DNA of 64,000 nucleotides from Undibacterium hunanense (lineage in GTDB: Bacteria; Pseudomonadota; Gammaproteobacteria; Burkholderiales; Burkholderiaceae_D): assembly GCF_014284335.1 (NCBI RefSeq), contig NZ_JACOGF010000021.1, positions 1 to 64,000 on the forward strand. The letters are read 5' to 3'. The translations under genes and the position numbers were made by a program. Under the pieces are notes generated by a model. The model made no database searches. It saw only the letters and a program-made list of their open reading frames with translations, and was not told the origin of the DNA. This document shows, one piece after another, positions 36,682 through 60,633 of this stretch; position 1 is the stretch's first letter; every line of letters starts with the position of its first letter.

Positions 36682-37572
36682 GTGACCGTCACCAAAAAGC
36701 TACGCATAGGATTAATCGCCAACCGCTCGCACCAGGATGCAACGAACTCTGCCCTGGTACAGCTGCTGCACGGCGCCGGTCCGGCACTAAGGCATTTGCA
36801 GGCGGAACTGGTGATCGTCGGTCGTACCCTGGATGCGATCATTTCCCACGGCTTGCTGGAAGCCTGCCCCAGTGTAGAACGTTTTCCCTACGGCAGGGAA
36901 GGTGGTTTGATGAAACTGGTGTCACGTGTCGTCGATACCGATCCGGCACGGGCGGTGGATGCGGTGATTTACCTGATCGATCCGGTCGATCCGTCTTCTG
37001 TCTTCCCTGAAGCGCAGGCGTTGAAACGCCAGTGCGTCATTCATCGCAAACCCTTTCTCGCTACGCTGGCCAGCGCCCGTGAATGGCTGGAACTGGAAGC
37101 CACGGCAGCCGGGGCCAGTATAGACACCCGCCTGAACGACAGCTTTCTGCTGGAACAGGAAGGCATCGCCCTGATCGCCCATGATGCAATGAAAGAAAGC
37201 ATGCTGGCCATGGCAGAAAAACATTTCGCCCTGCTGGACCGCTTTGCCTGTCGTTACGCCACCGGCACCACCGGCGGTTTACTGAACCGCTTGGCACAAC
37301 AGATCAAGGGAGAAGAAGCCGGCAAGAACTGGACCCGTCCATTCTTGTCCGGCCCCCTGGGCGGCGATGCCCAACTGGCAGAACTGGTGCTGGATCGCCA
37401 GATACGCCGCATCCTGTTTCTGGAAGACCCGCATGTGGCCCGCCAGCATGAAGCCGACATCCAGCTACTGGAAAGAGCGGCCCGCACCGTCACTGATTTT
37501 TCCCAGGTCATCAGTGAAGTCAGTGGTGCGGACCGCTGGCTCAGTTTGCTCACGCAAAGAGTGGCGATCTGA
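36682..37572 (+). CDS. Tandem methylglyoxal-synthase-domain protein
   Basis: A 296-residue protein whose residues about 160-290 are homologous to methylglyoxal synthase, which converts dihydroxyacetone phosphate into methylglyoxal. That half has IALIAHD (His167, Asp168), ATGTTG (193-198), GPLGGD (224-229) and the Asp of LEDP (249), the known catalytic and phosphate-binding positions. Residues about 7-140 form a second MGS-like unit with matching blocks (RIGLIANRSHQ, GREGGLM, IDPVDP, then HRKPFLAT), but HD becomes NR and GGD becomes GGL. The enzyme is usually about 150 residues. Activity of the second half is plausible, the first is probably structural. Confidence 0.82.
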   Translation: MTVTKKLRIGLIANRSHQDATNSALVQLLHGAGPALRHLQAELVIVGRTLDAIISHGLLEACPSVERFPYGREGGLMKLVSRVVDTDPARAVDAVIYLIDPVDPSSVFPEAQALKRQCVIHRKPFLATLASAREWLELEATAAGASIDTRLNDSFLLEQEGIALIAHDAMKESMLAMAEKHFALLDRFACRYATGTTGGLLNRLAQQIKGEEAGKNWTRPFLSGPLGGDAQLAELVLDRQIRRILFLEDPHVARQHEADIQLLERAARTVTDFSQVISEVSGADRWLSLLTQRVAI

Positions 37573-37576
37573 ACGC

Positions 37577-38392
37577 TCAGGCTGCGCTTGCAACTGAGGC
37601 AGTTGAAGCAGGTGCGGCTGCTGCAGCTACAGCCACGTTCTGGCCCGACAGACGCTTCAGTCTTTCCAGCGTGGTTTCACCAGTAGTGTCACCCTGGGCA
37701 ACCGATTTACGGATAGCATCAATCTCGGCTGCCTGATCCAGCGGTTTTTGCGTAATGTCGGCGACGATGCGCAAGCCAGCCGCTTCGTTGCTGACATTCT
37801 GGGCACGCCGGGTCAGCGCATTCAGCGCCGTCGAATGGCTTTGCATAACGGACAGATTGCTTAGTTGCTCCTGTCTTTCCACCCGTAATTGCTGCAGATC
37901 TTTCTGGGCTTTTGCCGCTGCCAGATTTTGCAGGGCTTTTTTGGCCGCTGCATCAAAATCAGCCAATTGTTTGGAAAAGGCATCAACGATTTTCTGCAAC
38001 TCGTTCATGTATTCCTGGGCATCGGCTTCTTCCTGCATTTCCACAGGAAGACGGGCCTTGTTGGCTTCCAGCTCATCACAAAACAGGCTGACTGTTGCTT
38101 CAGAAATTTTACCTGATGCGAGACGGTCTGCCAGTGTCGCGGTAGCTTTTTCGTCATTGGCGATCAGCTCACGCAAACGCACGACATCCATATGTTCCTT
38201 GTCGAAAGAGGAACGTGCTGCCGCCAGCTTTTGCGCTGTTTCGCGCAGGGTGGCTGCCAGGCGGTCACGATCGGCTTCTGTTGCTGTTTCCGGATCAAAA
38301 TTGGCGATGGCTTCCGATACTTTATCGCCCAAGGCACCAAAGTGTTTGGAAATCAGACGTGCGGTCAGGCCCCAGCCATTCAAGTTACTCAT
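37577..38392 (-). CDS. PspA/IM30-like coiled-coil protein (YjfJ-like)
   Basis: A 271-residue protein made almost entirely of charged helical segments, with a long coiled coil at about residues 40-205, a short hydrophobic-amphipathic N-terminus (WGLTARLISKHFGALGDKV) and an Ala-rich end. The pattern fits the PspA/IM30/Vipp1 branch of membrane-remodelling proteins, and the neighbouring DUF2491 gene matches the E. coli yjfJ-yjfK pair. PspA proteins bind stressed membranes from the cytoplasmic face. The assignment to the family rests on helical pattern and context more than on a strong motif. It is the last gene of a three-gene cluster. Confidence 0.65.
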   Translation of the reverse strand: MSNLNGWGLTARLISKHFGALGDKVSEAIANFDPETATEADRDRLAATLRETAQKLAAARSSFDKEHMDVVRLRELIANDEKATATLADRLASGKISEATVSLFCDELEANKARLPVEMQEEADAQEYMNELQKIVDAFSKQLADFDAAAKKALQNLAAAKAQKDLQQLRVERQEQLSNLSVMQSHSTALNALTRRAQNVSNEAAGLRIVADITQKPLDQAAEIDAIRKSVAQGDTTGETTLERLKRLSGQNVAVAAAAAPASTASVASAA

Positions 38393-38426
38393 GTTACTTC
38401 CTTTCAGTGTGTGACGCGGTCGGTGT

Positions 38427-38482
38427 TGTGCTTCAAGTGATGTGCTTCAAGTGCTGTACTTCAGCGGTTTTACTTCAAGTTC
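38427..38482. repeat. Four imperfect 14-bp tandem repeats
   Basis: Four adjacent 14-bp units (38427-38440, 38441-38454, 38455-38468, 38469-38482) carry the core CTTCA, three of them as CTTCAAGT, near the 5' end of the PspA-like gene. They fill the gap after the DUF2491 gene. The 14-bp period places repeated sites on alternating faces of the helix; a regulator-binding array or a slipped-strand region are both possible. Confidence 0.6.
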
Positions 38483-38502: not shown

Positions 38503-39318
38503 CTATTGCACCAGTAACCTTTCCGCTTCCAGCGGCAAGGCAATCATGAAATCGACATGGATGCCGCGCTGTGTGGCGTCACCATCCTTGCTACGTAAAA
38601 TCTCTGTGCTGATCAGCAATAATTCTGTCTGCCCTCCCTCTGGTGCCAGATTGCGGCGATACGGCATGAACACCACTTCCTGTTGCAGGCCATGCTGGCC
38701 ACCGGCATCATCAATGCGGGTTTCCATACCTTTGACAGGTGCCACAAATTCCAGCCCCGGGTCACCCATATCGCGCTCATACAGCAGGCTGTCGGCATCG
38801 GCAAATGCGGCGTCCAGAGTATCCTCATCCCAGCCTATGTCAGCCAGTTGCTGGCGCCACAGGCTGTAACTGCGGTCCCCCAGGCCAGACCCGTTTTCGC
38901 CGAGGAAGGCTTGTTGGTCTTCCACCGTTTCTGGTATTACGCGGGTCAGGTGACTGCAATACAAAAGCTCTTGCAACTGGTCATCGGCATCGCAATACAA
39001 CTGCAGGAATTTTTCACCCCCTTCGGCATCGGCATTCAGGTAATAGCGGTACATCTTGCCGCTGACCGGCAACTGCACGCGACTGATGGCCACGATGCGG
39101 GTTTCAGCTTCATCCGGCATGACAATCAGCGAACCCTGGCTGATGGCGCGTATCAATGGTGTCCTCTGCAAATTCACCACACTGCCCAAACGTGCTCCCA
39201 GTGGCAGGGCGGCATCCTGACGGCCACTTTCTGCATGTCTGTCTTGTGGGTTTTGCTGATCAGCGTCCTGCCTGCCGAGAATTTTTCCTACGTATTGGTA
39301 TGCATCTTTCCAGGCCAT
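38503..39318 (-). CDS. DUF2491 family protein (YjfK-like)
   Basis: A 271-residue cytoplasmic beta-rich protein of the DUF2491 family. It shows LPLGARLGSVVNLQRTPL, RIVAISRVQL, MYRYYLN and a conserved closing (LLISTEILR...GIHVDFMIALPL). In E. coli the homologue yjfK lies in an operon with the PspA-type yjfJ, and the same neighbour is found here. Its function is unknown. The start is set at MAWKDAYQYVGKILG, which has GGAGG 12 bases upstream and lies just after the stop of the upstream membrane-protein frame; the longer frame overlaps that gene. Confidence 0.82.
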   Translation of the reverse strand: MAWKDAYQYVGKILGRQDADQQNPQDRHAESGRQDAALPLGARLGSVVNLQRTPLIRAISQGSLIVMPDEAETRIVAISRVQLPVSGKMYRYYLNADAEGGEKFLQLYCDADDQLQELLYCSHLTRVIPETVEDQQAFLGENGSGLGDRSYSLWRQQLADIGWDEDTLDAAFADADSLLYERDMGDPGLEFVAPVKGMETRIDDAGGQHGLQQEVVFMPYRRNLAPEGGQTELLLISTEILRSKDGDATQRGIHVDFMIALPLEAERLLVQ

Positions 39319-39322
39319 GGTA

Positions 39323-39423
39323 TTAATTTCCTCCCAAACTGTAATGTGCTGTCGAAGCCTGCTTGCGGACTGGTTTGACGACTCGCCAGATTTTGTAAAT
39401 GAGCCAGCCCAGGCCACCCAGAA
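39323..39423 (-). pseudogene. Out-of-frame C-terminal segment of the upstream protein
   Basis: In a second reading frame, this segment continues the 264-residue protein: after an acidic stretch (SAVQEEGTG) it encodes one transmembrane helix (LLRLAVWSLILGGLGWLIY) followed by a basic tail and ends at TAA (39325-39323), two bases before the DUF2491 ribosome binding region. The frame is blocked upstream by TAG and TGA near 39526-39538. It therefore looks like the lost end of the neighbouring gene. Confidence 0.65.
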
Positions 39424-40218
39424 TCAGGCTCCATACCGCCAGGCGCAGCAGTTTCCAGCCTGTGCCTTCTTCCTGTACTGCACTGGCAGGCTGGGCATTT
39501 GCGGCTGGCAGGCTGGCAGGCTGGTATCACTGGTACTACTGGTACCACTGGCGCTAATACCATCGCTGACTACACTGCCCTGGCCAGCAATCGGTTCCAG
39601 CTGGCTGGAACGGGGCCCGGCAGGTTCGGCCGCCGCCGGATGACTGATCATGCTGCCCAGCATGAAACCCATGAAGGCGCCTGCCATGCCACCACCGATG
39701 CCACTGCGCTGCACGATGACAGGTGCAGGCGCTGGGCTGTTAAATCCCACCGGTGCTGTCGGTGCAGGTGTCATTGGCCGGTTCATGCTGGCTGTATTCG
39801 CATTACCAAAACCGCTGTTGGCCGCATTGTTACCAAAGCTGTTGCTGCTACCGAGGCCACCGATGTTGCTAACTGCATTCTGTGCTGGCAAAGGTGGCGG
39901 GGTAGATGGCGAGGTGGCGGCCTGCTTGCGCGCATCCATACTTTTCAGGGCATTCGCCTGGGCCTGGTTTTTTTGCAGGTCACGGTTCAAGGCTGAATCA
40001 GAATTTCTGCTGGTCGCCGGTTTGCTCGTGTTAAAACTGCCAAACGCCGTGTTCGATGGTTTCGATGGTGCAGGCTTGCTCATGCTTCTTTGTGAAGAGA
40101 ACCCGCCCTTGAAACCCGTGGACGAACCACCGGAACGGCCAGCCGCATTGACCGTATTGGCCATCAGGGGCAGAATCAGTGCCATCATGATGATTAACTT
40201 GTGATAAAAATTGTTCAT
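39424..40218 (-). CDS. Gly/Ser/Asn-rich exported protein, frameshifted at its C-terminus
   Basis: The 264-residue frame starts with a signal peptide (LIIMMALILPLMANTVNA) and continues as a low-complexity Gly/Ser/Asn/Ala/Pro protein (SGGSSTGFKGGFSSQRS; a short Gly/Met hydrophobic patch near residue 180). Its last 40 residues (from about PACQPQMP) are of alien composition. An 8-bp repeat at 39503-39524 has two full copies plus six bases; with one copy fewer the frame joins the transmembrane segment at 39323-39423 and gives a 295-residue protein, ending just before the DUF2491 gene. This could be phase variation, a mutation, or an assembly error. Function is unknown. Confidence 0.7.
   Translation of the reverse strand: MNNFYHKLIIMMALILPLMANTVNAAGRSGGSSTGFKGGFSSQRSMSKPAPSKPSNTAFGSFNTSKPATSRNSDSALNRDLQKNQAQANALKSMDARKQAATSPSTPPPLPAQNAVSNIGGLGSSNSFGNNAANSGFGNANTASMNRPMTPAPTAPVGFNSPAPAPVIVQRSGIGGGMAGAFMGFMLGSMISHPAAAEPAGPRSSQLEPIAGQGSVVSDGISASGTSSTSDTSLPACQPQMPSLPVQYRKKAQAGNCCAWRYGA
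39503..39524. repeat. 8-bp tandem repeat causing the frameshift
   Basis: GGCTGGCA occurs at 39503-39510 and 39511-39518 and is followed by a third, partial copy GGCTGG (39519-39524). Eight is not a multiple of three, so any change by one unit shifts the reading frame of the minus-strand gene. Removing one unit restores the longer frame; adding one does not. Confidence 0.85.
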
Positions 40219-40334: not shown

Positions 40335-40823
40335 ATGACACGGAAATATTCGGATATGAACCAACACGACGCCCTGTACAAGATAGCGCGCGCATATCCT
40401 GGCGGTTTGGAAGCACTGGCCAACAAGATGGGGGTCTCGGTGAATGTCTTGCGCAATAAACTGGCACCCGGCATAGAGTCGCATTACCCATCGTTTGAAG
40501 AGCTGTCCATCATCGTCGAGCATTGCCACGAAGCGGGCGTCAAAGACGCGCACCTGCCCTTGCATGCACTGCTCAGCCGGCATGGCATGGCTGCCTTTGC
40601 CATTCCGGAACCGGATCAGGTCAGCGAAGATGACCTGTCGCAAACCGTATGCCGCGTCATGAGCCGTGTTGGCGATGTGGCCGAAGCGGTATCAACCGCC
40701 CTGCTCGATGGTGTGATCACCGATGCCGAAGCCGATCTGATAGAAAGAGAATTCCAGAGTGCACTGACGGTGCTGGGAGAATGGCGTGCGCGCATACGTG
40801 CACATCACAGGCAAAGAGACTAA
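40335..40823 (+). CDS. CII-like phage regulatory family protein
   Basis: This 162-residue protein matches the phage regulatory CII family (Phage_CP76): MNQHDALYKIARAYPGGLEALANKMGVSVNVLRNKLAPG is the DNA-binding part with a helix-turn-helix near 22-45, and the rest is helical. Such genes occur as single chromosomal regulators in many Burkholderiales, without a prophage; no phage genes lie nearby here. Target is unknown. It is divergent from the PspA/DUF2491 cluster (116-base gap), which makes that cluster a possible target. A GGGA precedes the ATG by about 8 bases. Confidence 0.8.
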   Translation: MTRKYSDMNQHDALYKIARAYPGGLEALANKMGVSVNVLRNKLAPGIESHYPSFEELSIIVEHCHEAGVKDAHLPLHALLSRHGMAAFAIPEPDQVSEDDLSQTVCRVMSRVGDVAEAVSTALLDGVITDAEADLIEREFQSALTVLGEWRARIRAHHRQRD

Positions 40824-45823: not shown

Positions 45824-46120
45824 CTACGCAAAAACCCAGACGCTACGCCAAGCCCGCGACAACTTCTGCAACCAGCCAGCAGCCTCGGTTTGCTGTATCA
45901 GTAATTCACTCGCTTCCAGCGCCTGCACGTCTACCCAGCCGTGGTGTTGCGGTTGATAAGACATGCCCGCACAGAGCAGGGTATCCACTTGCCAGGCCAC
46001 GCCTTCGAGAAACTGGGGTGCGGATTGTATCTGTAGCTTGCCGGATTGCACGCGCAGGCTGCTGCCCGGTACTAACAGGCATTGCAGGCGCTGGCCTTGC
46101 TGGATTTTGTGGCATTGCAT
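45824..46120 (-). CDS. Small beta-rich protein, possibly DUF2917
   Basis: A 98-residue protein with a strand-rich pattern (KIQQGQRLQCLLVPGSSLRVQSGKLQIQ, then WQVDTLLCAGMSYQPQHHGW) like the DUF2917 family of Burkholderiales. Function is unknown. AGGA precedes the ATG by 8 bases. It is divergent from the MocR-type regulator, which may control it. The similarity to DUF2917 is by pattern only. Confidence 0.55.
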   Translation of the reverse strand: MQCHKIQQGQRLQCLLVPGSSLRVQSGKLQIQSAPQFLEGVAWQVDTLLCAGMSYQPQHHGWVDVQALEASELLIQQTEAAGWLQKLSRAWRSVWVFA

Positions 46121-46205
46121 GATGATGTTCCTGAAGAATTCAAATGGTTGATGTGGCTTTCAGGATAGATCCTGGCGGGCAGGCCGCACAGACACAGAAA
46201 AAGTC

Positions 46206-46273
46206 TATCTGTATCGCATCAGACAATCGTTTTATAATCTGTTATCGTGCAGATAGGCTAAAACTGTATCTGT
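46206..46273. promoter_or_regulatory. Candidate MocR-type binding sites and promoter
   Basis: TATCTGT occurs twice in direct orientation (46206-46212 and 46267-46273) and an inverted near-copy (GCAGATA, 46249-46255) lies between. A TATAAT box is at 46233-46238. MocR regulators often bind direct repeats between divergent genes; autoregulation and control of the DUF2917-like gene are thus plausible. Confidence 0.4.
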
Positions 46274-60112: not shown

Positions 60113-60159
60113 CTGTACTCCCCTGTAAAATCCGGAAAAAAGCTTAAGGATAAAAAAAC

Positions 60160-60633
60160 ATGATTAATTTACAGCTAGGTGATGTCAGCCATATCATCCA
60201 ACTTGCGATTGCCCCGGTCTTCCTGCTGACCGGCGTCGGTACTACGCTTTCTGTATTGACCAGCCGGCTGGCGCGCATCATCGACCGTTCACGGGTGGTT
60301 GAAGACCTGTTGCACGGTCACGATGCCGTACTGCCTGTCCCGCCGGGCCTGGAAGAAGAACTGCATGAACTGTATGAACGCTCACACCTGATCAACCGGG
60401 CCATTACGCTCAGCACCTCATGCGGCTTGTTTATCTGCCTGGTCATCGCGACTCTGTTTATGGGTGACGCCACCAGTTTGAGCCTGGATAAACCCATTGC
60501 CCTCTTGTTTGTTGCCGGTGTTTTTTCGTTGATAGGCAGTTTCATGTACTTCCTGCGTGAAATTTTCGTGGCAACCAAGACCCTGACCCGCCAACGCGAG
60601 CTGGGACGCCATAAAATCATTGCACGTGAATAA
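60160..60633 (+). CDS. DUF2721 membrane protein
   Basis: A 157-residue protein with three transmembrane segments (IIQLAIAPVFLLTGVGTTLSVL, ITLSTSCGLFICLVIATLFM, IALLFVAGVFSLIGSFMYFL) separated by a polar loop with helical character (RLARIIDRSRVVEDLL). It fits the DUF2721 family of unknown function. AAGGA precedes the ATG. It may share the palindromic control region with the dioxygenase. Confidence 0.85.
   Translation: MINLQLGDVSHIIQLAIAPVFLLTGVGTTLSVLTSRLARIIDRSRVVEDLLHGHDAVLPVPPGLEEELHELYERSHLINRAITLSTSCGLFICLVIATLFMGDATSLSLDKPIALLFVAGVFSLIGSFMYFLREIFVATKTLTRQRELGRHKIIARE

Follow-up and report, generated by a model that had tools for sequence, protein, structure and literature searches.

A reading frame that is shifted by a short tandem duplication represents an ordinary slippage mutation. 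Duplication-based phase variation has also been reported, namely for pneumococcal capsule genes (Waite et al. 2001, 2003, as cited in the accessible part of PMC4022640). With regard to repeat-based switching in general, a review of phase variation states, in the portion of its text that is accessible, that switching calls for repeat numbers beyond those expected from composition, and describes conserved core sets of switching genes, yet with high variability from strain to strain (PMC11868660). A literature search combining Undibacterium with phase variation yielded nothing that was judged relevant from its listing. Here we compare these systems with a locus of Undibacterium hunanense found in a window of 64,000 nucleotides, which is the whole stretch of DNA that was analysed. 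We consider it likely that the encoded protein has lost its membrane anchor through a private and recent tandem duplication of 8 bp, located in a linker that is disordered and prone to indels.

The truncated gene lies on the minus strand (39424-40218) and encodes 264 amino acids, starting from an ATG at 40218 in a frame (frame A) that is open from 40227 to 39424. Its product combines a signal-peptide-like start with a low-complexity body rich in Ser, Gly, Asn and Pro, and aligns with six intact relatives at 34-50% identity; the codons toward 39424 are out of frame and have no alignment to relatives. Visual inspection and hydropathy values show a hydrophobic stretch at the N-terminus, which suggests that the protein is probably exported. 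The missing C-terminal segment is encoded out of frame on the same strand (39323-39526) and comprises a transmembrane helix with a mean Kyte-Doolittle value of 1.68 across 19 residues, then a basic tail and the terminal residues HYSLGGN. This anchor frame is open from 39526 to 39323, with its TAA stop codon at 39325-39323 and the ATG of the downstream DUF2491 gene at 39318. The two frames and the alignment of relatives confirm what an earlier note on this DNA had described, namely a gene with an alien end and a second frame that carries the helix and basic tail and stops right before DUF2491. Independent translation of the anchor piece was rejected because no ATG, GTG or TTG precedes the helix in its frame, the one TTG being located near the end. 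No compensating second copy was found in the genome.

The DUF2491 gene (38503-39318, minus strand; PF10679, E 3.1e-09) is the next member of a likely operon. It has its own GGAGG, and the stop of the truncated ORF lies 105 bases before its start. In G065, which is the closest of the genomes that carry the locus, DUF2491 is 83% identical, and the third gene of the likely operon (37577-38392, minus strand), which has no confident Pfam or NCBIfam family, has a 92% identical match. A PspA-like assignment of this third gene was considered and is unsupported by the Pfam and NCBIfam searches. A 14-bp tandem repeat (38423-38463; 2.9 copies, 88%) separates it from the DUF2491 gene. Further along, a 296-aa protein (36682-37572) has two stretches that match the methylglyoxal synthase model and may represent a duplication or fusion. 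A gene for a Phage_CP76 (CII-like) regulator (40335-40823; 95% identical in G065) is oriented divergently to the likely operon and is, by similarity, a neighbour common to this genome and G065.

To define the normal form of the gene, 43 Undibacterium genomes, some of them incomplete and this one included, were searched with the DUF2491 protein. Matches occurred in 22 genomes, i.e. in this one and in 21 others that carry 22 loci, and none was found in the remaining 21. At all 22 other loci the ORF directly upstream of DUF2491 ends in an anchor of the same type, followed by a Y(S/T)L tail, and at 21 of them it is in frame from the signal-peptide-like start through the tail. The idea that relatives might also lack an in-frame membrane segment fails on this count, and the longer protein for which the earlier note suggested examining close relatives is indeed encoded there. 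A second set of loci from named genomes was in frame throughout (11 of 11); at least eight of these are apparently already among the genus loci, and the other three come from an Oxalobacteraceae MAG, Telluria and Duganella. The protein usually takes the long form, with its anchor.

The single exception among the genus loci (L052; G013:C1, upstream of 2402083) represents an independent disruption of the same gene, in which most of the 5' part has been replaced by unrelated DNA. The last ~200 bases of the gene are identical to those of the intact sister genome G015, and a 5' stretch of ~28 bases is still present further upstream. This replacement next to an intact sister, together with the 21 of 43 genomes (some incomplete) that gave no DUF2491 match, could be taken to mean that the genus is losing the gene and that our strain displays one step of its decay; however, the anchor segment accompanies DUF2491 at every one of the other loci, and we regard genus-wide loss as extremely unlikely.

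Members of the anchored protein family (39323-40218 and the homologues L024-L034 and L036-L057) have a signal-peptide-like start, a GFSS motif, a C-terminal transmembrane helix and a YSLG-type tail, and often contain an ALNRDL...DAR stretch. The family adjoins DUF2491 at 22/22 other genus loci. Searches with Pfam returned no family for the window protein and weak, scattered matches for 11 relatives (best E 0.0091), and NCBIfam gave no match for two proteins of the family. In a structure model of the intact relative L024, which is poor overall (mean pLDDT 54.5, pTM 0.24), linker residues 177-261 are mostly below pLDDT 50 and thus disordered, and a C-terminal helix spans residues 265-302 with pLDDT reaching ~90. 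The more lasting by-product of this analysis is a conserved single-pass family with a fixed C-terminal YSLG-type tail that sits beside DUF2491, occurs in Undibacterium and some other Oxalobacteraceae and has no confident Pfam or NCBIfam model. In our strain, this family may have a naturally occurring variant that lacks the anchor.

The position of the break can be bounded from both sides. In a tblastn comparison, the intact G065 protein aligned in two pieces that lie in different frames, 40224-39580 and 39487-39326. A stop codon closes off the anchor frame immediately upstream of 39526, so the break falls within 39526-39487. A perfect 8-bp tandem repeat (39503-39524), consisting of two copies of GGCTGGCA followed by GGCTGG, lies inside this interval and fills 22 of its 40 bases, which corresponds to 2.75 copies (TRF: period 8, 2.8 copies, 100%). 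The offset between frame A and the anchor frame is that of one 8-bp unit. The duplication and the break coincide. The claim that the frames meet at this repeat agrees with the limits set by homology and the stop codon, and the claim that a single unit separates them agrees with the offset. An imperfect 9-bp tandem repeat of triplet period (39521-39551; 3.4 copies, 86%) adjoins the 8-bp repeat in the same linker.

We also surveyed 984 kb of the 6.28-Mb genome (the window and 46 stretches of 20 kb) for perfect tandem runs that have 14 matches or more and a non-triplet period between 4 and 14. Altogether 15 such runs were found, the 8-bp repeat included, or about one per 66 kb, and five of them were inside ORF proxies. 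The expected number of run starts in a given 40-bp interval is therefore ~0.0006, and since a chance run within the break interval is so improbable, the repeat would very probably be what broke the frame. Repeats of this kind are rare at any one spot and ordinary across the genome. Two other arrays were noted in the genome. One (L077:10534-10622) has an 11-bp unit in ~8 perfect copies, is longer than the 8-bp repeat and extends from the end of an ORF. The other (L088:3570-3592) has a 7-bp unit in 3.3 perfect copies at most 66 bases from the 5' limit of a 779-codon open frame, which is defined from stop to stop so that the repeat may precede the true start; it is a slippage candidate comparable to or better than the 8-bp repeat.

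If the repeat were an assembly or sequencing error, the array would in reality be shorter and the gene intact. The otherwise undamaged state of the anchor segment is in line with this explanation, but ordinary sequencing reads exceed the 22 bp of the repeat, and the genome is listed as 100% complete with 0.12% contamination. The remainder of the window was checked with 66 ORF proxies taken from 80 kb of G065 (match cut-off E 1e-10), of which 45 matched. Two of these had adjacent pieces in different frames; one, at 45848-46241, was dismissed because its first piece precedes an ATG, and a frame split was thus proved for our gene only. A check for unmatched ends produced six proxies with at least 25 unmatched residues. 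One of these, an apparent broken gene whose match (60135-60545) crosses a stop, was discarded because it mirrors, in antisense, an intact plus-strand ORF that is open in both genomes; the 45 proxies are therefore not all genes. By this test, the assembly contains no other frameshift here. We consider an error unlikely, and the 8-bp duplication is probably real.

The anchored form might also be made from the DNA as it stands, if translational or transcriptional recoding joined the two frames. A -1 shift would bridge the offset and the anchor frame is conserved, but relatives encode the protein in frame and need no recoding. Within the 103-base overlap of the frames, no canonical slippery heptamer (XXXYYYZ) was present in any phase and homopolymers do not exceed three bases, a search that covers canonical sites only; the overlap hence contains neither of the signals typical of programmed ribosomal frameshifting. 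We find recoding exceedingly improbable.

The earlier note had proposed a reversible switch, in which slipped-strand mispairing within the 8-bp array would toggle the membrane anchoring of an exported protein. The repeat at the break is perfect and out of frame, so that any change in its unit number shifts the frame; the segment behind it is still conserved and the protein is probably exported, and short duplications in pneumococcal capsule genes reportedly give rise to phase variation (PMC4022640). Switches usually occur in a setting of this kind, a perfect frame-shifting array in the gene of a probably exported protein, and this counts against a plain mutation. However, the comparison with relatives did not bear the proposal out. 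An exact match to the repeat's 21-base core occurs in this genome only and in none of the 42 other genus genomes (some incomplete), and a non-triplet tandem run of at least nine matches occurs in the gene at none of the 22 other loci, one of which (G013) was scanned as an 88-codon remnant only. Retention or recurrence of the repeat in orthologues, which is common at contingency loci if not universal, was thus not seen. Moreover, the array has just 2.75 copies, and the census gave 15 runs of comparable size, five of them within ORF proxies. Beyond the repeat and the intact segment behind it, nothing positive speaks for switching, and a contingency locus is in our view very unlikely. A young, lineage-specific slipped-strand switch, by which a periplasmic protein would alternate between anchored and soluble forms and change its location rather than just its presence, can still be envisaged because strain-to-strain variability is noted in the accessible part of PMC11868660; we rate it as very unlikely. 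Such a switch would be unusual in altering where a protein sits, whereas a private frameshift would be ordinary.

Tandem repeats are nevertheless gained by this gene. Runs of at least nine matches were found at five of the 22 other loci (L041, L050, L051, L053 and L054), and in every case the period is 6, 9 or 12, so the repeats seen elsewhere preserve the frame. The adjacent 9-bp repeat fits this picture of frame-keeping repeat gain.

A single mutation suffices to explain all observations. Under our preferred reading, a recent private duplication, replication slippage between short direct repeats that already existed in the linker probably produced the 8-bp tandem copy, which, as the probable cause of the frame break, would have put out of frame the C-terminal membrane anchor of an exported protein whose gene lies immediately before DUF2491. 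The product would keep its signal peptide and be deprived of the transmembrane helix and cytoplasmic tail, and would most likely be set free in the periplasm or degraded; anchoring would be lost, and with it probably the function. With respect to age, the out-of-frame segment aligns to G065 over 51 codons without gaps and has a pN/pS of 0.32, compared to 0.40 for the N-terminal part (187 codons) and 0.19 for DUF2491 (271 codons), all of these being rough values with synonymous sites near saturation in the segment and the N-terminal part. Since the segment has not decayed, the break appears to be recent relative to the split from G065, or else the long form continues to be produced occasionally. 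A conserved out-of-frame segment would be expected, too, if the gene frequently switched back. Precise reversal is mechanically possible, as it is for any short duplication, and nothing was found in these comparisons that indicates selection for it.

Set against the known systems, the locus shares different features with each. Simple-sequence-repeat contingency loci, as treated in the accessible part of PMC11868660, resemble it in having a non-triplet tandem repeat in the gene of a probably exported protein, but here the array has fewer than three units, relatives do not share it and it does not exceed what is seen elsewhere in the genome. The pneumococcal capsule genes, to the extent described in the available text of PMC4022640, provide the parallel of a short duplication inside an ORF that is reversible by precise loss; reversal, mixtures of variants and recurrence are features of that system for which our locus offers no evidence. 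The yjf/PspA-type operons outlined in the accessible portion of PMC11237479 likewise include DUF2491, in contrast to which no Pfam or NCBIfam family could be assigned confidently to the anchored protein here, and the third gene lacks a match to the phage-shock-type PspA family. From the ordinary slippage frameshift no difference was observed: a perfect, short, non-triplet tandem duplication lies at the break and is private to one genome among those compared, with orthologues that are in frame and free of it.
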